Origin: Curvibacter sp. AEP1-3
GTDB lineage: Bacteria; Pseudomonadota; Gammaproteobacteria; Burkholderiales; Burkholderiaceae_C
DNA: 64,000 bases
Direction of reading: 5' to 3'
Assembly (NCBI RefSeq): GCF_002163715.1
Contig: NZ_CP015698.1
Span: forward strand, 2,706,201 to 2,770,200
In this document: positions 52,544 to 64,000 of the stretch, piece by piece
Layout of the letters: each line of letters starts with the position of its first letter
Position numbering within the stretch: the first letter of the stretch is position 1
The notes under the pieces: generated by a model
Told to the model about the DNA's origin: nothing
Databases searched by the model: none
Seen by the model: only the letters and a program-made list of their open reading frames with translations
Position numbers and translations under genes: made by a program

Positions 52544-53563
52544 ATGGCTACCCTGAGTGAAGTCGCCCGACTGGCAGGAGTCACCACTGCCACGGTGTCC
52601 AATGTGCTGCGCAATACCCAGAAGGTGAAACCAGCCACGGTGCAAAAGGTGCAAGAGGCGATTGCCGCGACCGGCTACCGCCCCAACCTGATGGCACGCG
52701 CGCTGGCCGAAGGCAAGTCGTCCATGGTGGCGCTGGTGCTGCCCGACATCAACAACCCCTTCTACCCCGAGTTCGTGCGGGTGGCCGAGCGGGTGGCGCG
52801 GCATCGCAACTACTTTCTGATGGTGTGCAACACCGACGAGCGCCCTGACATCGGCCGCGCGTATCTGCACCAGATTGCCGGTACGCTGGCCGACGGCGTG
52901 CTGGTGCTGCACACCGGTATCAGCGCGGACGACATCAATGAGCTGAAGACCCGCCGCTCCCCCATCGTGCTGGCGTCCGAAGAGCAGGTGGACCTGGCCA
53001 ACCGCATTCCCCATGTGGTGGTGAACTTCCACCGCGCGGGCGAAATTGCAGGGCAGCATTTGCTGGACTTGGGCCACCAGCGCATTGGTGCCATCGTGGG
53101 TTGCGGCCTGGAGGGCATGCAGCTTGGGCGTCTGGACGGGTTCAAAAGCGCCTTGGCTGCCGCTGGCATGACGCTGGCTGAGCCAATGGTCCGCAATGTG
53201 AGCGACACCGTGGCCGGCGGCCATGAGGCCACCGACTCATTGCTGGAGCAGCACCCCGACATCACCGCCATTTTTTGCACCAACGATTTGATGGCCTATG
53301 GCGCCAGCCAGGCCCTGGCCGACCGGGGCATCCGCATCCCGCAAGACATTTCGCTCATCGGCATCACTGACATCCAGCTCGCGCGGGACATGCGCCCGGC
53401 GCTTACCACCGTAGCCCTCGGCATTGAGCAGGTGGCCACCATCTCCATCAACCTGCTGTTGGACTTGATTGAAAACCCCCAGCACGAACCCACCATCGTG
53501 CATGTGCCCGATCCGGTGCTGGTAGTGCGTGCCTCCACCGGCCCTGTGCGCAGCGGCGCCTGA
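52544..53563 (+). CDS. LacI-family repressor of the galactoside locus
   Basis: Regulator of 339 residues from the ATG at 52544; a GTG at 52538 would add two residues. The N-terminal helix-turn-helix is ATLSEVARLAGVTTATVSNV, the hinge helix region RPNLMARALAEGK. The sugar-binding domain has VALVLPDINNPFYPEFV and the late GITDIQLARDMRPALTTV. It is divergent from the galactoside operon across two palindromic operators, so it very likely represses both directions until a galactoside is present. Confidence 0.94.
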   Translation: MATLSEVARLAGVTTATVSNVLRNTQKVKPATVQKVQEAIAATGYRPNLMARALAEGKSSMVALVLPDINNPFYPEFVRVAERVARHRNYFLMVCNTDERPDIGRAYLHQIAGTLADGVLVLHTGISADDINELKTRRSPIVLASEEQVDLANRIPHVVVNFHRAGEIAGQHLLDLGHQRIGAIVGCGLEGMQLGRLDGFKSALAAAGMTLAEPMVRNVSDTVAGGHEATDSLLEQHPDITAIFCTNDLMAYGASQALADRGIRIPQDISLIGITDIQLARDMRPALTTVALGIEQVATISINLLLDLIENPQHEPTIVHVPDPVLVVRASTGPVRSGA

Positions 53564-53584
53564 AGTACGGGCCGCGGTGGCGGC

Positions 53585-54211
53585 CTACAGTGTGTCGATG
53601 GGGTTGTGAGCCGTGTCGTCGCCGATGGCGAAGCGGTCCCGGCAGCGGGTGTAGAAGCTTGCGCCGAAGCGACCCACCGGGTGGTAGTCCTGCAGGTGCA
53701 CGCGCCACTTTTCGGTGTCTATCAAGCCATCGCGTGCGCTCATCCACAGCACCCGGCCAATGAACACATAGCGGCTGGGCGTTTCCAGCGTTTCATGCAG
53801 CACGCATTCAAAAGCCACCGGTGCCTCCGCAATGCGCGGCGGGCGCACCGTGTGGGACGGAGCGGCATGCAGGCCCACCGCGTCCAGCTCACTCACCGAG
53901 GCTGGGAAGGCATGGCCGCAGGCGTGCATCTGGGCGGCCAGAGGCTCGTCCGTCATGTGCACGACGAACTCGCGCTCGGAGAGGATGTTGGCCGCCGTGT
54001 CCTTGAGCTGCCCGTCCTGCAAGCGGTTGATGCTGAGCATGACCACCGGGGGGGCCTCACCCAGCATGTTGAACATCGAAAACGGTGCGGCGTTCACCAC
54101 GCCCGCTGCGTTCAGGCTGGTGACCAGCGCAATCGGCCGCGGCACGATGAGGCTGGCCATGAGCTTGTAGCGCTGGTAAGCGGTGATCTGTGAAAAGTCG
54201 ACTTCGGTCAT
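53585..54211 (-). CDS. Flavin reductase family protein
   Basis: FMN-binding split-barrel protein of 208 residues from the ATG at 54211. Family marks are PRPIALVTSLNAAGVVNAAP, SMFNMLGEAPPVVMLSI and KDTAANILSEREFVVHMTDE. Such proteins are reductase components of two-component flavin monooxygenases or related enzymes; no monooxygenase is adjacent. It converges with the LacI gene. Confidence 0.9.
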   Translation of the reverse strand: MTEVDFSQITAYQRYKLMASLIVPRPIALVTSLNAAGVVNAAPFSMFNMLGEAPPVVMLSINRLQDGQLKDTAANILSEREFVVHMTDEPLAAQMHACGHAFPASVSELDAVGLHAAPSHTVRPPRIAEAPVAFECVLHETLETPSRYVFIGRVLWMSARDGLIDTEKWRVHLQDYHPVGRFGASFYTRCRDRFAIGDDTAHNPIDTL

Positions 54212-54260
54212 GCGCAACGTGCACGCAAGGGACGTGCCGTTAAACCGGAGCGGAGAAGCC

Positions 54261-54315
54261 CGCTATCAAAACAGAAGCTACCCGCGCATATACCATGAGC
54301 GCTACAGGCACTTTT
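54261..54315 (+). repeat. Dispersed repeat, copy E (diverged)
   Basis: CGCTATCAAAACAGAAGCTA, then CCCGCGCATATACCATGAGC and GCTACAGGCA. It is the same repeat in a more diverged form, between the flavin reductase and RidA genes. Confidence 0.6.
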
Positions 54316-54731: not shown

Positions 54732-55184
54732 CTACTTGAGGCGGCGTTTTCCGCCTTTTGCCGGTTTGGTCGCCTGCGGCAGCGTCATCGTGTCCAGCTG
54801 CAGCATGGTGTCCAAGTGGCTCATGAAGTGGTGCAGGTAGGCGGGAGACAGGTCTTGCATCAGACCCAAAGTGCGCAGCACCAGACGGTGCGAGTTGAGC
54901 GGGCCGGCATTGGCGGGGCCTTGTTGCAGCGCGTGTTCCACCTGGTCTTGCACTTTCATGCGATGCCACGACTGGCGGAACTGCTGCACGCTTTTCATTT
55001 CCACCGTGCGCGGTGGGTTGGATGCAGTTGCCGCGTTTTCAGAGACTGTCGCGGGGCTTTGCAAGCTGCGGTTCAGAGCCTTCAGGGCGTTGAGGCCTTT
55101 GCGGGGAATCGCAGTGCGTGGCTGCTCTGGGAGCTGGCGCATGCGCTCTAGCAGGGCGTGCATGGCGTGCGACGCGTCAGTCAT
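54732..55184 (-). CDS. DUF2894 protein, last gene of the MotAB-like operon
   Basis: Protein of 150 residues, DUF2894, function unknown. It is cytosolic: an N-terminal helix (HAMHALLERMRQLPEQPR), a low-complexity linker and a C-terminal helical domain (residues about 65-135). That domain reads SVQQFRQSWHRMKVQDQVEH, then PAYLHHFMSHLDTMLQLD, and a basic tail KPAKGGKRRLK follows. It overlaps the OmpA-like gene by eight bases. Its constant association with the channel-like pair suggests a cytosolic accessory or effector of that complex. Confidence 0.82.
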   Translation of the reverse strand: MTDASHAMHALLERMRQLPEQPRTAIPRKGLNALKALNRSLQSPATVSENAATASNPPRTVEMKSVQQFRQSWHRMKVQDQVEHALQQGPANAGPLNSHRLVLRTLGLMQDLSPAYLHHFMSHLDTMLQLDTMTLPQATKPAKGGKRRLK

Positions 55185-55821
55185 GGGTAACTTGCGTACC
55201 CTTGGGCACCGGGGCCATCTCCACGCGGCGGTTCAGGGCCCGGCCGCTCTCGTTTTGGTTGGATGCCACGGGCTGCTGTGCGCCAAAAGCCGCAGCAAAC
55301 ACGCGCGAGGCAGGCATGCCCTCTTCAATGAGCGCGCGCGTCACGGTGAGCGAGCGCTGCGCGGAAAGCTCCAGATTGTCGGCAAAGTGCCGGTTGGCTC
55401 CTGAAACGGCTACGTTGTCCGTAAAGCCGCTGACCATGAGCATCTCGTCCCGCTCACCCAGGTACACCTGCAGCGGCGGAACCAGGCTTTTGAGCAACTG
55501 CCGCCCGTCGGCGCGTAGCTGGTCGGAGTTGACGGCAAACAGCACGCTGCCGCTGATGCCGATGCGCCCGTTATTCAAGGTCACGCGGCCCGATTGCAAG
55601 GGGATGGCCAAGGCCTTCTCCAGCGCCATGCGGCGCTGTTCTTCCTGTTGGCGCTTTTTGACTTCGGACTCCAGGTTGGCGACCAGGTCCATCTGGACCA
55701 CCAGCACACCGACCAGAATCAGCACAAACGCACCCAGCAGGCCGGCCATCAGGTCGCCAAAAGTGGCCCAGACCGGGGCGCTATCGACCCCGCTGTCGTC
55801 CATGGTGTCGATGTCCGTCAT
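55177..55821 (-). CDS. OmpA/MotB-like protein with N-terminal transmembrane Asp
   Basis: Protein of 214 residues. One membrane segment at about 22-45 starts WATFGDLMAGLLGAFVLILV; the Asp (residue 23) at its start matches the ion-carrying Asp of MotB and ZorB. A short coiled coil follows (EVKKRQQEEQRRMALEKAL). An OmpA-type peptidoglycan-binding domain (about 85-205) has FAVNSDQLRADGRQLL, NLELSAQRSLTVTRAL and ALNRRVEM. The ATG at 55821 overlaps the stop of the DUF802 gene by one base. The role is inferred: the stator-type partner of the DUF802 channel. Confidence 0.88.
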   Translation of the reverse strand: MTDIDTMDDSGVDSAPVWATFGDLMAGLLGAFVLILVGVLVVQMDLVANLESEVKKRQQEEQRRMALEKALAIPLQSGRVTLNNGRIGISGSVLFAVNSDQLRADGRQLLKSLVPPLQVYLGERDEMLMVSGFTDNVAVSGANRHFADNLELSAQRSLTVTRALIEEGMPASRVFAAAFGAQQPVASNQNESGRALNRRVEMAPVPKGTQVTHD

Positions 55822-57704
55822 CACGCAGTCCCTGCGGTAGTGACGGCCTGATTGCGCAGTTTGCGCAGGTCTTCCACCACGGCTTTTTGCGAGCTCAGAC
55901 TGAGGTCGATCACCTCACGCGCCTGGGCTACGTAGTAGGCTAGCTGTTCGTCACTGCGCTCCATGGATTGGTTGACTGCGGCCTCCACCCCCTGCAGGCT
56001 CTGGACCAGCTGCTCGCTGGTACCCACAAACAGTTCCACCGCTTGCTGGAAGCTGCTGCCGAGGTTGGAAAGTTCGGTGGCACTGCCACCCACTTGCGCG
56101 GCCAAGTGGTCGGCCTTGTCGGCTTGTAGCGCCAGTGTTTGCGAAAACTGCTCTTGCACTTGCAGCAGCGTGTGGCCGGTGTTGGCGACCAAGGTGTCAA
56201 TGGCGGCGCGCTGGCCTTGCGTGGTGGCCTCGGCCGATTGCAGCACGCCGTGCAGGCGCTCCATGAGCTGTTGGCGCTCTTGCAGTGCAAGCGTGTCACG
56301 TTCGTCCAGCTGGCTCATGCCGGTGCGCAGTTGCAGGGTGAGTTCGCTGATGCGGGCAGCGGCGGCTTCGCTGCGGGCAGCCTCTTCTGCACGCAAGTCG
56401 TTCAGTCCAGTGCGCCACAGGGCGGTGAGCTGGTCCATGCGGGCCTGCTGCTGTTCTGTCCAAGTGGCCTCGGCCTGCTGTTGGGCAGCGACCAGCGCTT
56501 CAGATTGCGTCAGCACACGGGCCATGCCGGCTATGGCCGCGCTCGCTTGGCTTGCGGTGTGCCCGGTGATGGTGGCCACGTTGGCTTCCAGCGTGCGGGC
56601 AAAAGTCTGCTGCTGCGCCTGCGCGTGTTCGCCCGCGCGCTGCCATTCGGTCTGCAGGGTGGCGGTGCTCTCATTCAGGGCGCGTGCCCAGTCGGCCGTA
56701 AGGGTGTGGGTGCCTTCGCGGAAGGCGGTTTGCACGCCCTGGAGTTGCGCTTGCAAGGCTTCACGCATCTGCGTGTGTTGTTGGCGCGTCTCGGCCACCA
56801 GCTGCTGCAGGGCGGATTCCATGACCGGCACGATGGCTTCGCTGGTTTGCTTCGCACCCGCCAACAGGCTGTCTTGCAGGCTTTGCCCTACGGCAGTGGC
56901 TAGGCCGGTGTAAGCGCGGCCGACGTCGGCATGGAATGCTTGCTGCTGGGCTTCCAGCCGTGTGTTCAGGGCCAGGTTGCGTTGCTCGATTTGTTCCATC
57001 AACCGGCTGAGCTGTTCTGCCACCGCAGGCAGTGCCTGCACTTGCTGCTGCTGGGCCAGCAGCCCGGCTTCCCGTTGGTGGGCCAGGGTGAAGGGCCGCA
57101 GCACCGTGGCAATACGACTGTCCAGCAGGCGGGTGACTTGCAGGCGCTCGCGGCGGCAGAGTGCGGACACCAGACCCAGCAAAGCCGATGTCGCCACCCC
57201 CGCCACCGACGTGCCAAAGGACAGGCCCAGACCTTTGATAGGTGCCGCAAGCGCCGCGCGAATGGCTTGCAGGTCGGCAGAGCCCTCCAAGGCAAAGACG
57301 GCGCCTTTGAAGGTCATGACCATGCCCAGAAAGGTGCCCAGCATGCCCAGCATGACCAACAGTCCAACGAGGTACGGGGTGAGCGATGGGCCCGGCAGGC
57401 CCACCCGCTCACCCTCAATGCGCGCACGCACGCTGGGTTGCAAGGCGGCAGGTACGCGGGCCAACCATGCGCTGAGCGACTCCAGCGGTTCGCCCATGTC
57501 AATGAGCGCCTGCCGCAAGGTGTGGGTGGTGGAGCGGTAGCTGGACATTTCCCGCAGGCCCATGGCATAGACCGCGCCAATGAGCAACGTCATGCACAAA
57601 GCCAGATAACTGGTGCCTAAAAAGCCCAGAGCGATCCAGCCCACAAAAACAGCCCCTGCGCCAATAGCGGCGGGGATGACGAAACGGTTCATATCTTGAG
57701 TCAT
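55821..57704 (-). CDS. DUF802 protein: MotA/ExbB-like membrane part with long coiled-coil tail
   Basis: Protein of 627 residues. Four membrane segments at about 8-30, 32-50, 109-131 and 157-183 are followed by a cytosolic tail of about 420 residues. The tail is almost entirely Gln-, Ala- and Glu-rich coiled coil. The third and fourth segments carry LVGLLVMLGMLGTFLGMVMT and GLSFGTSVAGVATSALLG, close in pattern to the pore-lining helices of MotA, ExbB, TolQ and ZorA. Known family: DUF802. Inference: a proton- or sodium-driven 5:2 motor with the OmpA-like protein as partner and a long intracellular rod. Confidence 0.87.
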   Translation of the reverse strand: MTQDMNRFVIPAAIGAGAVFVGWIALGFLGTSYLALCMTLLIGAVYAMGLREMSSYRSTTHTLRQALIDMGEPLESLSAWLARVPAALQPSVRARIEGERVGLPGPSLTPYLVGLLVMLGMLGTFLGMVMTFKGAVFALEGSADLQAIRAALAAPIKGLGLSFGTSVAGVATSALLGLVSALCRRERLQVTRLLDSRIATVLRPFTLAHQREAGLLAQQQQVQALPAVAEQLSRLMEQIEQRNLALNTRLEAQQQAFHADVGRAYTGLATAVGQSLQDSLLAGAKQTSEAIVPVMESALQQLVAETRQQHTQMREALQAQLQGVQTAFREGTHTLTADWARALNESTATLQTEWQRAGEHAQAQQQTFARTLEANVATITGHTASQASAAIAGMARVLTQSEALVAAQQQAEATWTEQQQARMDQLTALWRTGLNDLRAEEAARSEAAAARISELTLQLRTGMSQLDERDTLALQERQQLMERLHGVLQSAEATTQGQRAAIDTLVANTGHTLLQVQEQFSQTLALQADKADHLAAQVGGSATELSNLGSSFQQAVELFVGTSEQLVQSLQGVEAAVNQSMERSDEQLAYYVAQAREVIDLSLSSQKAVVEDLRKLRNQAVTTAGTA

Positions 57705-57710
57705 AAGGTG

Positions 57711-58394
57711 TCAGGCCCCGGTCTGCCAGGCCTCTACCAGGCCGGTGACGGGTTCCAATCTAAAGTGCAGTTCCGCCACCAGGGCGTCTTGAAAATCTTG
57801 CTCGAATGCGGCCATGGAGAGCGCAGCATCCTGGCGATAACGGTGAAAACGCCGCTCCAGCAGTGCGGAGAGCTTGGCCAGCAGTGCCTGGGCGCGTTCA
57901 CCCAGCATGTCTTCCAGGGTGGTATCCATCTGGGCCAATTGGCTCAGGCGGGGGCTGGTGCGGGCGAGCACTTCGCGGCAATGCTGGCGGAACGGGCCTA
58001 TGCGCAGCTCCATGCGCCGCTGGATGTCCAGGTAGCGCTGGCGGTAGCTGCCGTAGTCCTCATCTTCTGCCGGTTCGGGCGCCGCTTGGGCAATGCCCGC
58101 CACGCGCACCTGCGCAGGCACCGGCCGCACGGGTGGTTGCCGGATGAATCCGGTCAAGTCAACACACAGCTGTTGCAAGGCCTGGCTCAGGTCGGGCTCA
58201 TGCGCGGTCCGGGATGCAACCACTTTGGTTGCTTTGGTGATGGCGGGCAAGGCGCCACGCAATGCAATGGCATCCAGTGGCCCCAGCCACGCGCTCCAAT
58301 GGAGTGCCCAGTCCGGCCGGGTGGGTCGGACTTCTATCGCACTCCAGCTTTCCAGCAGACCGATGAGCCCCGGCGTTCCGGAACTCAGCGCCAT
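57711..58394 (-). CDS. DUF3348 protein, first gene of the MotAB-like operon (5' end altered by transposon)
   Basis: Soluble protein of 227 residues (DUF3348), function unknown. It is helical, with ARGINSSR-type family start replaced here by MALSSGTPGLIGLLESW. The core includes RQRYLDIQRRMELRIGPFRQ and the C-terminus RFHRYRQDAALSMAAFEQDF. The ATG at 58394 is two bases from the predicted end of the Tn7-like element and has no ribosome-binding site. A TTG at 58484 inside the element would add 30 residues. The native 5' end and promoter have probably been displaced. Confidence 0.75.
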   Translation of the reverse strand: MALSSGTPGLIGLLESWSAIEVRPTRPDWALHWSAWLGPLDAIALRGALPAITKATKVVASRTAHEPDLSQALQQLCVDLTGFIRQPPVRPVPAQVRVAGIAQAAPEPAEDEDYGSYRQRYLDIQRRMELRIGPFRQHCREVLARTSPRLSQLAQMDTTLEDMLGERAQALLAKLSALLERRFHRYRQDAALSMAAFEQDFQDALVAELHFRLEPVTGLVEAWQTGA

Positions 58395-58395
58395 C

Positions 58396-58487
58396 TGTAG
58401 GTTCGCACTTGATATCCGAATTGACTGGTGCCATTTCAATGAGTTTCGGTTTTCAAATAAGAATCTATTGTTGTCGGTTCTCAAAAT
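58396..58487 (+). repeat. Putative TnsB-binding repeats at transposon end
   Basis: Three similar 16-base units: TGTAGGTTCGCACTTG at 58396, TTTCGGTTTTCAAATA at 58444 and TGTCGGTTCTCAAAAT at 58472. A weaker TTTCAA-containing unit lies around 58429. The outermost begins with TGT, as Tn7-family ends do. Confidence 0.6.
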
Positions 58488-58609
58488 TCTACCGAACTTC
58501 CTAAAAGCTGAATCCCGAAGTTGCCTGTTGCTGCCGGCCGCTTCTTCAACTAGCTTGCTGTAAATTCATGCTCCAGAGAATTAAGTGGGTACTTGATGGT
58601 GTCAACAGG

Positions 58610-60403
58610 TCAGGTCAACTTGCCGAAACCCTCGAAATAGTTTCGACATTCAATGCGGTTGTACAGCAACTGCCTGCACCCATCAATTTCTGGACCCGCA
58701 ACAGGGACGACCCCTGCCTGATCAAGAACTTTCTTTACAGTTTTTGGGGAAGTCTTCCATTGCAAAGCGAGATCCCGACAAAACACAAACTGAGACTTAA
58801 AGGACTCCACTTCAGTATGGCGAACATACTGTTGATTCCTGGCACCAAATGCGTTGGCGTTAACGCGTAGAAATCTAGTCCGAACAAGCGAATAGGCTAC
58901 TTCTTGCTTGATATGGAGGAGGGCGGCAACCTGTGGAATTGTGTAGTCTTGGATCTTAGAGATGAAAGTCAAATCAAACCACGCATTGACTTCTTTGTTT
59001 GAGACAAGAAGTCCTCCAATGGTTGAAACCCCCTCCACACGACCAATGAGAGGCAGTTTTTTTGAAAATATCTCGATCAAAAAGGTGCCCACCTGATCGT
59101 TCTTCCATGACTTAAAACGCAGAATATATTCCACGGAGATGCAATCTTTGATTTCAGAGACATATGTCGGCTGACTATGAATAAACTGCGTCCACGCGTC
59201 AATCCATGATGTGGGTATTGACCATGGACAACCTAGCCCCCCCAATTTGAAAGCATCGGGGCAGATCACAGGCAATAGCGCCTGCAAGCGCGACTTCTTG
59301 AAGCCCAATCGGTTTGCAGCGTACTGCAACGAGGAATGTGAGATCTGCGCCTTGCAAAAATTGTCAACGTCCGCTCTGTGTACTAGAACAATCACTCGTC
59401 CTTTTTCGGTCGTGCGTCGGGATGCGCGGATGCTGAGGGCGTCAATTAGCGCAAGTAGACGGCGTCTAGATATGCCCATTTGCGAACAGGCGTGATTCGC
59501 CGGAATCCAGTCCACTCTTTCAAGCAGCGCTTTGTGTAGACGCTTATTTCGCCGTGTGATTCCCTCAGTCCAAAACTCTGCCATGTAGTCTTGAAAGGCT
59601 TCTCTGAGAAACTCAAATTCTTCATTACGAAATCCACGGTACAAAGACAAGTAGAAACCGCGAAATGCAACGGGCAATCGCCCAGAGGTGCCTTCCACGG
59701 CACTTGCCTTCAAAGAACTCGCAATCCTATTGAATCCAACAGGCCAGTTGAATATAACTTCAGCGGCTGAACTCGTAACGTGCCATGAGATGCGAAGTTG
59801 ATCAAGATCTGCGATCTTCTGGGGACGTCTACTTTTGGGGAAGCTTGCGTAAGCACCCAAAAACAGGATGATTCGAACACATTGATTCAAACTCAGCCCG
59901 TCTAAAAAAAGACCCGTGTTTGGAAGGTAACCCATTGCAAGTCGGTGCAAGTGGTTACTAAGCAGACAGACGTTGGAAGGTGCAGGGGAGGGGACCTCAT
60001 CTAACAGGGATCGACCGCAGTCACAGAAAAGTAGCTTCGCCCGCTGCCAATGCAGCGATGCATGACATACCGAGCAAGAATCAACCAACCAGCAACAACA
60101 AACGGGGCAAGCGTCGGCAAACAACACCTCCCATCCGATATGCCATGTACCTCGGACTTTCAAGCATGCCGGGCAGAAGCGTGAGTGTTTTGAATTGTAC
60201 GAAGGCAGTTGCCCAGCGACATCTCCCGCAGAATTTGAGTGCGAAGTCGCACCTCTATCTATTGGGTATATGTCAGAAACCTTTTGGAACGAGAGCAGGT
60301 TGTCTTCAGCAAGTCTGAGCTGGTAGCCAAAGGGCCCCTCGTCGCTATGCTGTATGGGAGTTCGAAGCAATCCTGAGCCTTGAGTCACTTCGATCAAAGG
60401 CAT
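58610..60403 (-). CDS. TnsD-like TniQ-family target selector with C-terminal module array
   Basis: Large TniQ/TnsD-type protein of 597 residues. The TniQ-like N-terminus (about 20-75) is followed by cysteine-rich zinc fingers (C77-x2-C80, a cluster from 99 to 113, then FCDCGRS at 127-131). Residues about 300-590 look like five similar units of 50-60 residues. Each has a helix-turn-helix-like part and ends in a wing such as RADVDNF, SWIDAW, KEVNAWF, HTEVESF or RIECRNYF. It would bind the attachment site and recruit TnsC. It overlaps the TniQ gene by ten bases. Confidence 0.82.
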   Translation of the reverse strand: MPLIEVTQGSGLLRTPIQHSDEGPFGYQLRLAEDNLLSFQKVSDIYPIDRGATSHSNSAGDVAGQLPSYNSKHSRFCPACLKVRGTWHIGWEVLFADACPVCCCWLVDSCSVCHASLHWQRAKLLFCDCGRSLLDEVPSPAPSNVCLLSNHLHRLAMGYLPNTGLFLDGLSLNQCVRIILFLGAYASFPKSRRPQKIADLDQLRISWHVTSSAAEVIFNWPVGFNRIASSLKASAVEGTSGRLPVAFRGFYLSLYRGFRNEEFEFLREAFQDYMAEFWTEGITRRNKRLHKALLERVDWIPANHACSQMGISRRRLLALIDALSIRASRRTTEKGRVIVLVHRADVDNFCKAQISHSSLQYAANRLGFKKSRLQALLPVICPDAFKLGGLGCPWSIPTSWIDAWTQFIHSQPTYVSEIKDCISVEYILRFKSWKNDQVGTFLIEIFSKKLPLIGRVEGVSTIGGLLVSNKEVNAWFDLTFISKIQDYTIPQVAALLHIKQEVAYSLVRTRFLRVNANAFGARNQQYVRHTEVESFKSQFVFCRDLALQWKTSPKTVKKVLDQAGVVPVAGPEIDGCRQLLYNRIECRNYFEGFGKLT

Positions 60404-61485
60404 GGTGTGTACTCCGCCATTCCCCTGATAGGGCCCAGATAAATTCTCTTTCGTTTGGCCTGCCTGCGGCCCGCCTTGGAGCGTGGCGCTACCTGATGTG
60501 GGCCTGGATGAAATTCCGGCACGTAGGGTGCCTCGGCCGCGGCAGTCAGATCTTCTGCGCTCAGCCCAAGTTCATTTCTCCAATCCCAAAGGATGCGTGG
60601 AAAGGGTAGCTCTTCGAGGCTACCTCTCAGAAGCTGGCGGGTCTCATCCGGTGTCTTGTTGAGCCGAACGGCATGGCTCAATGTGAGTGGTGACGAAGCT
60701 GCGTACAAAAATATCGCTTCTCGAAGTTGGAGGCAATAGCGCTGATCAGCAAGAATTTTGAGCATCAGCCAGGCGATACTGCCCTGATTCAAACGTCCGC
60801 TAGGGATATCGAATTCATCTGCAAACTCTGGAAGAAGTACGTACTCAAGGAACTCCATCAGAAGCAAATGCCAATGAAGAGGAATGCCCCAATCCTGTCG
60901 AGAAGCATCGGTAGATGCTGTCCATGGCCGCAACGAACGCATTGTGGCCATTGCCAGTAGTCGACAATGGCCTCGCTCCACTGTTCCAGAAGCGGCTCTA
61001 ACCTGCATGGCACCAATTTTCAAGCCGCAGCGGCATCTTCGGCATCCCCAGTCCCACCCAATGTCTCTACCGCAACGTGTGCAATGACTGATCATTCGGC
61101 AGTTGTGGATATGGCAAACCGTGTATCTGCGCAAGTCCCAATAAACTCGCGAAACACCATCATCCGCGAAGCAAAGAGGGCAAACCCTTCCGCTAGTGGA
61201 ATTGATCAATGATTTGGGGAACCGTTCGTCGCCAATCCGGAACTCTTCTGCCCGGCTAGAAATTGCGACATCGAACGATCCATGCGCGCGCAAGACATCG
61301 CTAGATGTCCCAGTCAATGCTGACAGTAAGTCTATATTCGCATTGATAGTATGAAGACTGGAAAGTGACTTCCGCACTCTTGAGAAGCAGTGGTTCAGCT
61401 CTGCAGATCGGGCGACAAATCCGCGCGTGCTTTCGTAGATTTTCATCTCCGTCAAAAGCAGAAATGAAGAAGTAGGTACATCCAT
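60394..61485 (-). CDS. tniQ: TniQ-family protein
   Basis: Adaptor between target DNA and TnsC, 363 residues. The middle region carries a zinc finger: CPLCF, then CHIHNCRMISHCTRCGRDIG and further paired cysteines CRRCRCG. The C-terminus is strongly basic (RSKAGRRQAKRKRIYLG). The N-terminal half lacks the usual ESLSSW start, so it may be a diverged TniQ. The gene lies 12 bases after tnsC and overlaps the TnsD-like gene, so all are translated together. Confidence 0.83.
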   Translation of the reverse strand: MDVPTSSFLLLTEMKIYESTRGFVARSAELNHCFSRVRKSLSSLHTINANIDLLSALTGTSSDVLRAHGSFDVAISSRAEEFRIGDERFPKSLINSTSGRVCPLCFADDGVSRVYWDLRRYTVCHIHNCRMISHCTRCGRDIGWDWGCRRCRCGLKIGAMQVRAASGTVERGHCRLLAMATMRSLRPWTASTDASRQDWGIPLHWHLLLMEFLEYVLLPEFADEFDIPSGRLNQGSIAWLMLKILADQRYCLQLREAIFLYAASSPLTLSHAVRLNKTPDETRQLLRGSLEELPFPRILWDWRNELGLSAEDLTAAAEAPYVPEFHPGPHQVAPRSKAGRRQAKRKRIYLGPIRGMAEYTPCL

Positions 61486-61497
61486 GACCGCATCAAT

Positions 61498-62538
61498 TCA
61501 AGAGAATTTTCGCGTGTGTTTTTGCTTCACTTCGCCAAAGTATTGATTGATGTCATCCCAAACATCAAAAGGTTCAAAGGGCTTGTTCAACAGGCGAAAT
61601 GTTCTCATCCCAGAAAATGGATTTAGTTCGTCAGGCGCCCCTGTCCAAATTGCGCGGCGGAAAGAGTTTGCCAAATCTGCGAGCTCAATTCGAACCTTTC
61701 CTTCAGCACCGCACCTTGACACAACGTCGTCCAGAATCTTGATGATGTAATCCATGAGGCCATGCGTTGCAAAGTAGAAGCGGCGAGCCATGTTGGGTTC
61801 CGACAGATCAATACATTCAATCGGCAACGAGCTTTGCAAAGCATTCAGAACCCCGCGAAACTCCAGCTTATTCTTGCTATCGTAGAAACTGAATGGCGAC
61901 AAGTACAACGGTGCACCAAACCGGCGGCGCATTTGTGGATTGCTATTGAGAACCAGGATGGATCGCGGTAGTCCACTGAGAATGACAGGTATGCGAAGGG
62001 AATCAATCAGGGTCTTGACCCAGTCAGTCACCTTCCGGCATTCGGCCGTACGCCTCCCATCGACAAAGTGTTGAAACTCGTCAATCATCAATAGCTCGAC
62101 GCCACATGATTTGAACAAGTGCACTATGCGATTGGTCTTAACGGTTGTATTGCCTGATGCGGCAGCGGGGTCTCCCATTGCAAGCAAGATGGTCTCCGCC
62201 AGCATCTTTACAGAAGGGGCCGCGGGTGTAGTGACACGCACTACCGGGATCTTCATTCCTGCAGCTGTTCTTACTGCGGGAAACTTAGACGCGTAGTATT
62301 CCAATACCGTGGTTTTGCCGCTGCCAGTTTGGGCGACCAGCAACATGCCTTCAGCGACATTGGCTTCCACACCTCGCCGATGACGTCGTGCGATCTCCCG
62401 GATAGCCTCAGTGAACTGAGGTGTTTCAATGATTTCATGGCGAAGACTGAACGTCGAAGCAACGGTTGAGTAATTCGCTTGATCTTTTTTGGAGAGTCCA
62501 AGACCGGAAAGCAGCTGTAGATTGTTGATTGTTTGCAT
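61498..62538 (-). CDS. tnsC: TnsC/TniB-like AAA+ ATPase
   Basis: Transposition regulator ATPase of 346 residues from the ATG at 62538; an ATG at 62625 would add 29 residues, and neither has a good ribosome-binding site. Walker A is AQTGSGKTT (69-77) and Walker B LLMIDEFQHF (149-158), followed by a sensor region ILSGLPRSILVL. It polymerises on target DNA in related systems and passes the target from TniQ or TnsD to TnsB. It lies between tnsB and tniQ. Confidence 0.9.
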   Translation of the reverse strand: MQTINNLQLLSGLGLSKKDQANYSTVASTFSLRHEIIETPQFTEAIREIARRHRRGVEANVAEGMLLVAQTGSGKTTVLEYYASKFPAVRTAAGMKIPVVRVTTPAAPSVKMLAETILLAMGDPAAASGNTTVKTNRIVHLFKSCGVELLMIDEFQHFVDGRRTAECRKVTDWVKTLIDSLRIPVILSGLPRSILVLNSNPQMRRRFGAPLYLSPFSFYDSKNKLEFRGVLNALQSSLPIECIDLSEPNMARRFYFATHGLMDYIIKILDDVVSRCGAEGKVRIELADLANSFRRAIWTGAPDELNPFSGMRTFRLLNKPFEPFDVWDDINQYFGEVKQKHTRKFS

Positions 62539-62693
62539 ATGATGGAAGCAGAGAAATCTGCGCAAGCCATGAACTGCGGATCGTCCAAGATTGGAAAATC
62601 GCTGTAGCGCGTTGACTGATCTCATTGAAAATGAAGGTCAGGTTCGAACGAGCCAAGTTCTATGGCTTGGCGAGTTAATAGAAAAGTTGGGGC

Positions 62694-64000
62694 TTAGATG
62701 GGCGCGAGTTCACGCTCGCTTTTTGTGAAGATCGGCATGACTTCGTCCGAATCCGCGTCCAGATCTGCATCTGGTTCGAGCTCTGTATCAACAGGTACCC
62801 GTGCGGCGTCCAGAGGGTCGTTTGCGCGTGGTGACAGAACAGCCTCACTGTCTAGAAGCTCAAGCGAAGCAACGGTCTTGCGCGTCTTGGTTTTTTTAGC
62901 CACGACAGCTGCTTCAACGATGGCTTGAATCTCCGACTTCACCAAAAGCAACTGTTGCTGTGTCCATTTGTCTGTGAAGCGCTTGCGTGTCTGCGCACAA
63001 ATCATGCGGTGAACATACCGATTCAAGCCTTTCGCATAGGCCAAATCGACAGCAGGAACGTCCACAAACTCTTCCAAATCTGGATGAAACACCGAGATGA
63101 AACTCACGTCATGTTCGAAGGCACGAAGCACCAGTTGAGGCCGTTTCCCTTGATGCTTTTCCCGAAGCGCCTGCAAAACAGGTGAGTTGTAGTTCAAATT
63201 GTCATACTGGAGGCCGTAGTGAAACAAAGTGCGGCAGCCTTCAAATCCCACCATGGCATTCAACTGATGTGGAAATGCTGGTAGTTCTATGACCGTCCTG
63301 CTTGCCTCCATTTGCCATACATGAAGTGGAGTGAAGCCCTTGAGACCGCGGTGCGGTGTCTTGTGATAAACGTCCACAATCCATTTCAGAATGAGATGCG
63401 TCAGCACTTCAATATCGATAGCCGCATGCTTCTCACTGTCGTAATCGCCTTTTTCTTCAACATTCGAGAACGTAGTACCGGGTAGCTGGTGAATGAGACT
63501 GCGATTCAGTGTCCCAAGGAGCCGCTCAATGGCCCCCTTCATATAGGGCATGGCGATTCCGCAATAGTGAATCGTCATGCCCATCTCAAGAGCAACAGCA
63601 TCAATTGTGTGGCCGTGAAATTCCATTCCGTTGTCCGATACGAGCGTGTCGATGAGGCCGTGTGCCGGCCAAGGTCCCTCGATGTCCGGAAATTGCGCTA
63701 GCAACTCGTCCTTGGGTAAGATGGCTTGGCGCAAACAATAGAGAATTGAAATCTGTGACGGCGCGTGGAAACTCACGTAGAAGCCCACAATCATTCGGGA
63801 CTTACGATCCACGGCCAACGTCAACCATGGCCTTCCCAAGATAAGCCGAGTTTTTTCACAAATTACGGTGATGTCCAGCGGCGTGTGGTCAATTTCGACG
63901 CGTTGAAGTATTCGGTCAACTTGAACGCCTTCATTGGCCACTCGCATTTTCTTTTCAGTCGCAGCGGAGCCGTCTCTGGCGTTAGACACAATCCTGTTGT
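62694..64000 (-). CDS. tnsB: TnsB/TniA-like DDE transposase (5' end beyond window)
   Basis: Mu/Tn7-type integrase, at least 435 residues; the frame stays open to the window edge, so the N-terminal DNA-binding part is missing here. Numbered from the GTG at 63989, the catalytic residues are Asp34 (VEIDHTPLD), Asp119 (LVSDNGMEFHG) and Glu155 (GAIERLLGTL). The last two are 36 apart, a DD35E site. The C-terminal Mu-type beta-barrel and an acidic tail (ELEPDADLDADSDEVMPIF) follow, the latter probably contacting TnsC. Confidence 0.92.
   Translation of the reverse strand, partial: NRIVSNARDGSAATEKKMRVANEGVQVDRILQRVEIDHTPLDITVICEKTRLILGRPWLTLAVDRKSRMIVGFYVSFHAPSQISILYCLRQAILPKDELLAQFPDIEGPWPAHGLIDTLVSDNGMEFHGHTIDAVALEMGMTIHYCGIAMPYMKGAIERLLGTLNRSLIHQLPGTTFSNVEEKGDYDSEKHAAIDIEVLTHLILKWIVDVYHKTPHRGLKGFTPLHVWQMEASRTVIELPAFPHQLNAMVGFEGCRTLFHYGLQYDNLNYNSPVLQALREKHQGKRPQLVLRAFEHDVSFISVFHPDLEEFVDVPAVDLAYAKGLNRYVHRMICAQTRKRFTDKWTQQQLLLVKSEIQAIVEAAVVAKKTKTRKTVASLELLDSEAVLSPRANDPLDAARVPVDTELEPDADLDADSDEVMPIFTKSERELAPI

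Follow-up and report, generated by a model that had tools for sequence, protein, structure and literature searches.

A chromosomal Zorya type III operon of Curvibacter sp. AEP1-3, its probable role in phage defense, and its distribution among related genomes

Introduction

The flagellar MotAB/PomAB and the ExbBD/TolQR complexes pair a four-segment A subunit with a one-segment B subunit that carries an aspartate, and MotB-type proteins possess an OmpA domain. Here we analyze a four-gene operon that encodes a motor pair of this general kind, a ZorA-like and a ZorB-like protein, within a 64,000-nucleotide stretch of the Curvibacter sp. AEP1-3 genome (NZ_CP015698.1, positions 2,706,201 to 2,770,200; this whole stretch is hereafter called the window), and we compare it with the Zorya systems. 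In Zorya types I and II, five ZorA subunits around two ZorB subunits make up an ion-driven, peptidoglycan-anchored motor. Defense by this motor requires every one of three elements, the Asp (the equivalent residues being D24/D21), the peptidoglycan-binding domain, and the tail of ZorA, and this tail is a rod that may turn or rearrange (PMC11890865). Helicase or nuclease components have been named for these two types.

Zorya type III was defined in 2021 by genes for DUF3348 and DUF2894 proteins that flank the motor pair (printed as zorBC), with 6,401 cases (PMC8565338). When the type III operon of Stenotrophomonas nitritireducens was placed in Escherichia coli, plaquing of at least one phage was reduced, and cultures infected with PVP-SE1 at a multiplicity of infection under 0.1 did not collapse (PMC8565338). 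The text of that paper calls the DUF3348 protein ZorF and the DUF2894 protein ZorG, and PADLOC-DB applies the two names the opposite way; we use the DUF names throughout. In type III, by comparison, the two partner proteins have DUF domains and no others. The spread of the three Zorya subtypes was called typical of anti-phage systems in a 2025 paper (PMC11890865), and in a study of Variovorax, Zorya type III was predicted by PADLOC only (PMC11953036).

Results and discussion

A four-gene operon that matches Zorya type III

All four proteins of the operon matched PADLOC models for Zorya type III (ZorA3, ZorB3, ZorF3, and ZorG3; E values from 9e-39 to 8e-205), and the locus almost certainly belongs to this type. 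The genes are tightly packed on the minus strand at 58394-54732 in the order DUF3348, ZorA-like, ZorB-like, DUF2894 (Table 1): a gap of 6 nt separates the first two, the middle pair overlaps by 4 nt, and the last two overlap by 8 nt. None of the four open reading frames (ORFs) contains an internal stop. A first-pass annotation made from the sequence had described a motor pair of ZorA/ZorB architecture between two DUF proteins, with genes overlapping or nearly so and with no ZorC, ZorD, or ZorE, and the ORFs, Pfam, and the profile comparisons described below agree on each of these points. It had gone on to propose a different system without a described function, which was wrong, because DUF3348 and DUF2894 beside ZorAB are what defines type III (PMC8565338). 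The type III system is already described, and this locus is a further copy. As expected for this type, all four proteins are present and the DUF3348 and DUF2894 genes lie on either side of the motor pair, whereas the site at the 3' end of gyrB in this clade, the short DUF2894 protein (150 residues), and a ZorA tail without a Pfam DUF802 match set the locus apart. We consider it probable that this intact chromosomal operon of Zorya type III works in phage defense via a motor-to-partner route; that phage defense is its native function seems likely on balance.

A hydropathy scan of the ZorA-like protein revealed two N-terminal segments and two further segments near residues 105-139 and 161-184. 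The tail of 422 residues holds 2 prolines and shows a heptad periodicity that was reached by none of 300 shuffled sequences, confirming the annotated four-segment, MotA/ExbB-type protein with a tail of about 420 residues. When a profile of 40 ZorA core sequences was compared with solved chains, one match was convincing, 8VVN (ZorA of a Shewanella type I Zorya system; E value 1.1e-6, with the next at 0.42), and the alignment placed T124 and T165-S166 opposite T and TS of 8VVN. A search of the Protein Data Bank (PDB) with the single ZorA sequence found nothing at an E value of 1. The protein had been labeled DUF802, and this label was not supported, as no Pfam family, DUF802 included, matched it at an E value of 0.1; DUF802 was likewise not found in the window's genome at an E value of 1e-3. 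Some ZorA-like homologues are annotated as "DUF802 domain-containing". The match to the NCBIfam ZorA model was weak (32.7 bits; cutoff, 100).

The ZorB-like protein scored 344 bits against NCBIfam NF006547 (cutoff, 194) and matched Pfam OmpA at 3.1e-16, which predicts peptidoglycan binding; both the OmpA domain and an Asp at the start of the transmembrane (TM) segment, D24, had been annotated correctly. Among many OmpA-domain proteins it also matched 8qyd (2e-6; labeled "Membrane protein" in the table of matches), which we take to be ZorB. The operon shares with types I and II the ZorA/ZorB core, the Asp, the Thr/Ser positions, the peptidoglycan-binding domain, and the long ZorA tail, and differs from them in having DUF3348 and DUF2894 in place of ZorC, ZorD, and ZorE, which neither Pfam nor PADLOC detected in the operon. 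These comparisons also bear on whether the pair could be a flagellar-type or Tol/Ton-type stator for motility, gliding, or outer-membrane work. Such stators have the MotA/ExbB and MotB/OmpA domains in common with the operon, and the ZorB-like protein does score on MotB models. However, its score on the MotD model (83.3 bits) is far under the cutoff of 283, the MotB models among its best 25 matches are likewise below their cutoffs, NF006547 is well over its own, and the PADLOC ZorA3/ZorB3 matches are much stronger. The window's operon further differs from flagellar MotAB/PomAB and ExbBD/TolQR in its long, heptad-patterned tail and its two constant partners, both of them soluble DUF proteins, and Pfam identified no TonB/TolA-like gene in it. 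We regard a role as a stator of this sort as highly improbable.

The two partners and a proposed mechanism

The AlphaFold2 model of DUF3348 was all-helical, with a predicted local distance difference test (pLDDT) score of 83.2 and a predicted template modeling (pTM) score of 0.79. Sequence profiles of DUF2894 and DUF3348 retrieved no credible relative from the PDB, and neither protein has a recognized enzyme domain. A basic C-terminal tail with a net charge of at least +4 was present in all 56 scored DUF2894 homologues (58 hits), and the DUF2894 motif NAGPLNSH was invariant in 30 of 30 aligned sequences. The Pfam match of the window's DUF2894 protein spans profile positions 72-183 of 185. Across the window's clade this protein has 150 residues, with about 70 positions missing at the start of the Pfam profile, and many more distant homologues reach about 200 residues or more. 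A kinship between DUF2894 and DUF3348 was considered and found to be unsupported (profile-comparison probability, 0.6%).

For the defense route that we favor, we propose that an incoming phage would disturb the cell wall, upon which ZorB would engage peptidoglycan. Ions flowing past ZorB D24 would then move ZorA together with its tail, and the tail would act on DUF3348 and DUF2894 so that the infection is stopped. At a guess, DUF3348 may be a helical adaptor on the ZorA tail, and DUF2894 may touch nucleic acid via its lysine/arginine tail.

Conservation of the four-gene set and selection on its genes

We traced the operon in other genomes with the ZorB3 model NF006547, scored over its cutoff, as a marker, and "all four genes" below refers to profile matches rather than to intactness; L and G numbers are our handles for loci and genomes. 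The 70 loci of the synteny set comprised 68 distinct ones, as L003 duplicates L091 and L004 duplicates L089. All four families were matched in 67 of the 68, in one order and on one strand, and the exception, L053, lies at a contig edge; the same locus is the only one among the 44 marker-positive genomes of the family in which the four families were not all matched (43/44). The same was found for 16 of 17 further loci from a 19-genome genus, with the exception (L126) cut by a contig end, and for all 20 loci examined from a large, 81-genome genus, again in the same order. The grouping of the four genes exceeds chance. Individual copies can be interrupted: ZorA is split over two ORFs in L075 and spread over two frames in L126 and L128, and a stop codon falls inside one ZorB match in each of G034, G154, and G588. 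In L128 (G546), one open frame contains the beginning of ZorA and all of ZorB, another frame contains part of the ZorA tail, and the DUF2894 match is limited to a 73-residue ORF; this copy is either frameshifted or broken, or else it was misassembled.

Relative to three close relatives, the ratio of nonsynonymous to synonymous substitution rates (dN/dS) was 0.11-0.12 for ZorA, 0.03-0.06 for ZorB, 0.13-0.27 for DUF3348, and 0.12-0.23 for DUF2894, compared with 0.01-0.03 for gyrB. Against the more distant L092, the ratio was 0.06-0.21 for the three operon genes compared. The operon genes are constrained, and the two DUF partners are the least so. In some pairs the synonymous divergence (dS) of ZorB was about 0.7-1.2 and that of gyrB about 0.3-0.5. 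We make no claim that the operon was swapped horizontally behind gyrB, because the codon bias of gyrB and dnaN can explain this difference.

A transposon between gyrB and the operon

The operon comes after dnaN and gyrB in close relatives (91-95% DNA identity). At 8 of 10 distinct gyrB-near loci the gyrB stop and the DUF3348 start share one base (TGATG), and of the remaining two, L067 has a short gap and L072 has about 2.7 kb between gyrB and DUF3348. In the window's genome, homology to these relatives breaks off where DUF3348 starts, with gyrB on the same strand at a distance of 56 kb. A 56,272-bp element sits exactly in the overlap of the gyrB stop and DUF3348 start and has left both genes whole: its ends begin TGTAGGTTC, and its 5-bp target duplication, GATGG, preserves the stop of gyrB as well as the start of DUF3348. 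The latter is the ATG at 58394, although the mechanically called ORF opens at a TTG at 58484, within transposon sequence.

The end of the transposon nearest the operon encodes two TniQ-like proteins (one under the Pfam cutoff), TniB, and a 685-residue protein that weakly matches rve (DDE integrase), followed by GajA and GajB homologues (5.8e-70 and 1.5e-58; L011:10244-13521). The transposon also holds a gene for an 890-residue AAA protein with a weak Cap4-nuclease match (L011:16113-18785). Judging by these sequence matches, the transposon carries defense-type cargo, including Gabija-type genes. Among 100 genomes of the window's genus, its TniQ-like protein had one other relative (41% identity) at an E value of 1e-20.

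By parting the operon from gyrB, the element has probably abolished any read-through expression, and the operon could be a decayed or silenced relic of the insertion. Against this stand four open frames, a target duplication that preserved the stop of gyrB and the ATG of DUF3348, and a low dN/dS, with the caveat that this ratio mostly reflects the time before insertion. We find it very unlikely that the operon is such a relic.

Table 1. Features of the operon and of the adjoining transposon end, in window coordinates
Feature	Position	Strand	Evidence
DUF3348 protein, first gene, 227 aa	57711..58394	minus	Pfam PF11828 1.5e-38; PADLOC ZorG3 2.5e-52
ZorA3, 627 aa, channel subunit of the MotA/ExbB/TolQ type with an extended cytosolic tail	55821..57704	minus	PADLOC ZorA3 (PDLC00648) 8.2e-205; core profile matches 8VVN
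ZorA T124, candidate pore-lining Thr of TM3 (LGTFLGM)	57333..57335	minus	Invariant in 40/40 aligned cores
ZorA T165-S166 of TM4 (FGTSVAG)	57207..57212	minus	Opposite TS of 8VVN in the alignment; S166 in all 40 aligned cores
ZorA cytosolic tail, residues 206-627, heptad-patterned	55824..57089	minus	Sequence periodicity
ZorB3, 215 aa, GTG start, one TM segment and OmpA-type peptidoglycan-binding domain (residues 95-199)	55177..55824	minus	PADLOC ZorB3 (PDLC00651) 2.2e-105
ZorB D24, expected ion-carrying Asp	55753..55755	minus	Start of the single TM segment
DUF2894 protein, last gene, 150 aa, basic C-terminal tail (net charge +5)	54732..55184	minus	Pfam PF11445 2.8e-33; PADLOC ZorF3 8.9e-39
One copy of the target duplication, GATGG on the minus strand, holding the DUF3348 ATG	58391..58395		5-bp duplication of the 56,272-bp transposon
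Near transposon end, outside the operon	58396..64000, continuing to G000:C1:2820867		L011, L111, L112, L068

Distribution and setting of type III weighed against a role in defense

Several observations weigh against phage defense as the native role of the operon, and a first group concerns its distribution. It had been argued at the outset that presence in nearly all members of the order would speak against defense. This pattern did not hold in the family sample, where the marker was patchy (44/150 genomes), in the class sample (10/276), in the window's genus (36/100 genomes; 23 of the 49 good ones), or in another genus (6/11). It did hold in two genera, in which the marker is near-fixed (79/81 and 17/19 genomes, one match each), and a small third genus carried it in 4 of 5 genomes, again with one match each. 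The 17/19 and 4/5 genera were chosen since both of their sampled members were positive, and the 79/81 and 6/11 genera were chosen likewise from the class hits; having been picked as positive, the four genera show that near-fixation occurs and not how frequent it is. In the literature, as covered by titles and the starts of abstracts outside most subscription journals, we found no report of near-fixation of type III in a genus. Mobile replicons point the same way. The ZorA3 core was detected on 27 of 72,556 plasmid records, all of them 366 kb to 3.5 Mb in size, and in none of 50,697 phage records. For type I ZorA there were 24 plasmid records, of which the 15 listed are 41-188 kb. A search for type I ZorA in the 81-genome genus found none, a result of little weight given that the search matched no control either. 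In one genome (G029), a type I Zorya locus (L130) and a type III locus (L056) occur on one contig about 100 kb apart.

A second group of observations concerns the neighbors of the operon, since the first-pass annotation had also named absence from defense islands as an argument against defense, and the flanks of type III loci indeed hold few PADLOC matches. Flanking ORFs were picked by a simple rule of length and G+C content at third codon positions, and some may be spurious; PADLOC matches were taken at an E value of 1e-10 and counted as families. For type III, 43 loci gave 125 picked ORFs, of which 120 were used after 5 long ones had been dropped for their size. As a control, 40 ORFs were taken from 8 of 10 type I loci (the other 2 being without ZorC/ZorD), which had been found with a ZorA model (10/150 genomes at an E value of 1e-15, none over the cutoff). 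The 120 type III flanking ORFs yielded four PADLOC families (HEC-05 twice, BrxL, and mad1), one ORF each, so that at most 4/120 ORFs match PADLOC, versus at least 4/40 for type I. The type I flanks matched 143 PADLOC families, with type I methylases and specificity subunits (two of each) among the matches, a figure that overstates the case for type I because many models describe the same few proteins. By Pfam, the type I flanks contained DUF3375 and DUF4194, which we take to be Wadjet components, as well as transposases and ordinary genes (e.g., GidA, GidB, and aldehyde dehydrogenase). Some of the 8 type I loci of the family thus adjoin type I restriction-modification and DUF3375/DUF4194 genes. 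In the type III flanks, the 25 Pfam families shown of 166 belong mostly to metabolism, transport, and regulation. What our analysis adds is this ecology of type III, which is odd for a defense system: in distribution and setting, type III behaves unlike type I of the same family.

Two further points count against the defense route. The structure model of DUF2894 was poor (mean pLDDT, 49.4; pTM, 0.18), and the cytosolic steps of the proposed mechanism are unsupported. In Burkholderia cenocepacia K56-2, knock-down of any predicted defense system, Zorya III included, left fitness during Bcep176 infection unchanged (PMC12584637). The same study found transcription of the first one or two Zorya III genes to be changed, its screen covered one phage by knock-down, and the explanations offered by its authors include a knock-down that was too short or too weak and inactivity against Bcep176 (PMC12584637).

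These observations suggest an alternative in which the operon would serve mostly as a device for housekeeping or stress. Its peptidoglycan-anchored motor would, through DUF3348 and DUF2894, link the condition of the cell wall to a process in the cytosol or at the nucleoid, and phage protection would be incidental or a product of overexpression. In favor of such a device are the near-core presence with a single match in some genera, the dnaN-gyrB linkage in the window's clade, the few PADLOC matches among mostly metabolic, transport, and regulatory families in the flanks, the basic DUF2894 tails, and the finding that all 17 loci of the 19-genome genus fall into one flank group (by single linkage, in which antisense ORFs may count). 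Patchiness in the family and class samples, in the window's genus, and in the 6/11 genus does not fit, and neither does the variety of insertion sites. The 70 synteny loci formed 40 shared-flank groups, 29 of them single, and even in the 79/81 genus the 20 loci formed 5 flank groups, with 12 of the 20 sharing flanks and the rest in four groups. We read this as past movement of the operon followed by present stability in some lineages. The protection observed directly in E. coli (PMC8565338) also argues against a housekeeping device, and we hold this alternative to be possible though somewhat unlikely.

A related, rather doubtful proposal is that type III is a wall-sensing motor that became fixed in several lineages, belongs to the core of some genera, lies mostly outside defense islands, and is not primarily a mobile immune module, with its partners, the helical DUF3348 and the basic DUF2894, relaying mechanical envelope signals to the nucleoid. 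If so, phage protection would be one outcome of a general response to breaches of the wall, and the overlap with gyrB in one clade may couple translation of the operon to that of gyrB. Near-fixation does not disprove the phage defense that we favor, as defense systems, too, can become fixed in lineages, and the result in E. coli stands. Together, near-fixation, few defense neighbors, and linkage to gyrB make possible a sharp test of the everyday role of the operon, whether in defense or otherwise.

Genes next to the operon

Among the scanned neighbors of the operon, Pfam identified RidA, a flavin reductase, and the genes of the transposon. The gene with the flavin-reductase domain (53585-54217) lies within a 0.7-kb stretch (53554-54261) that is missing from the otherwise collinear relatives L003 and L004.

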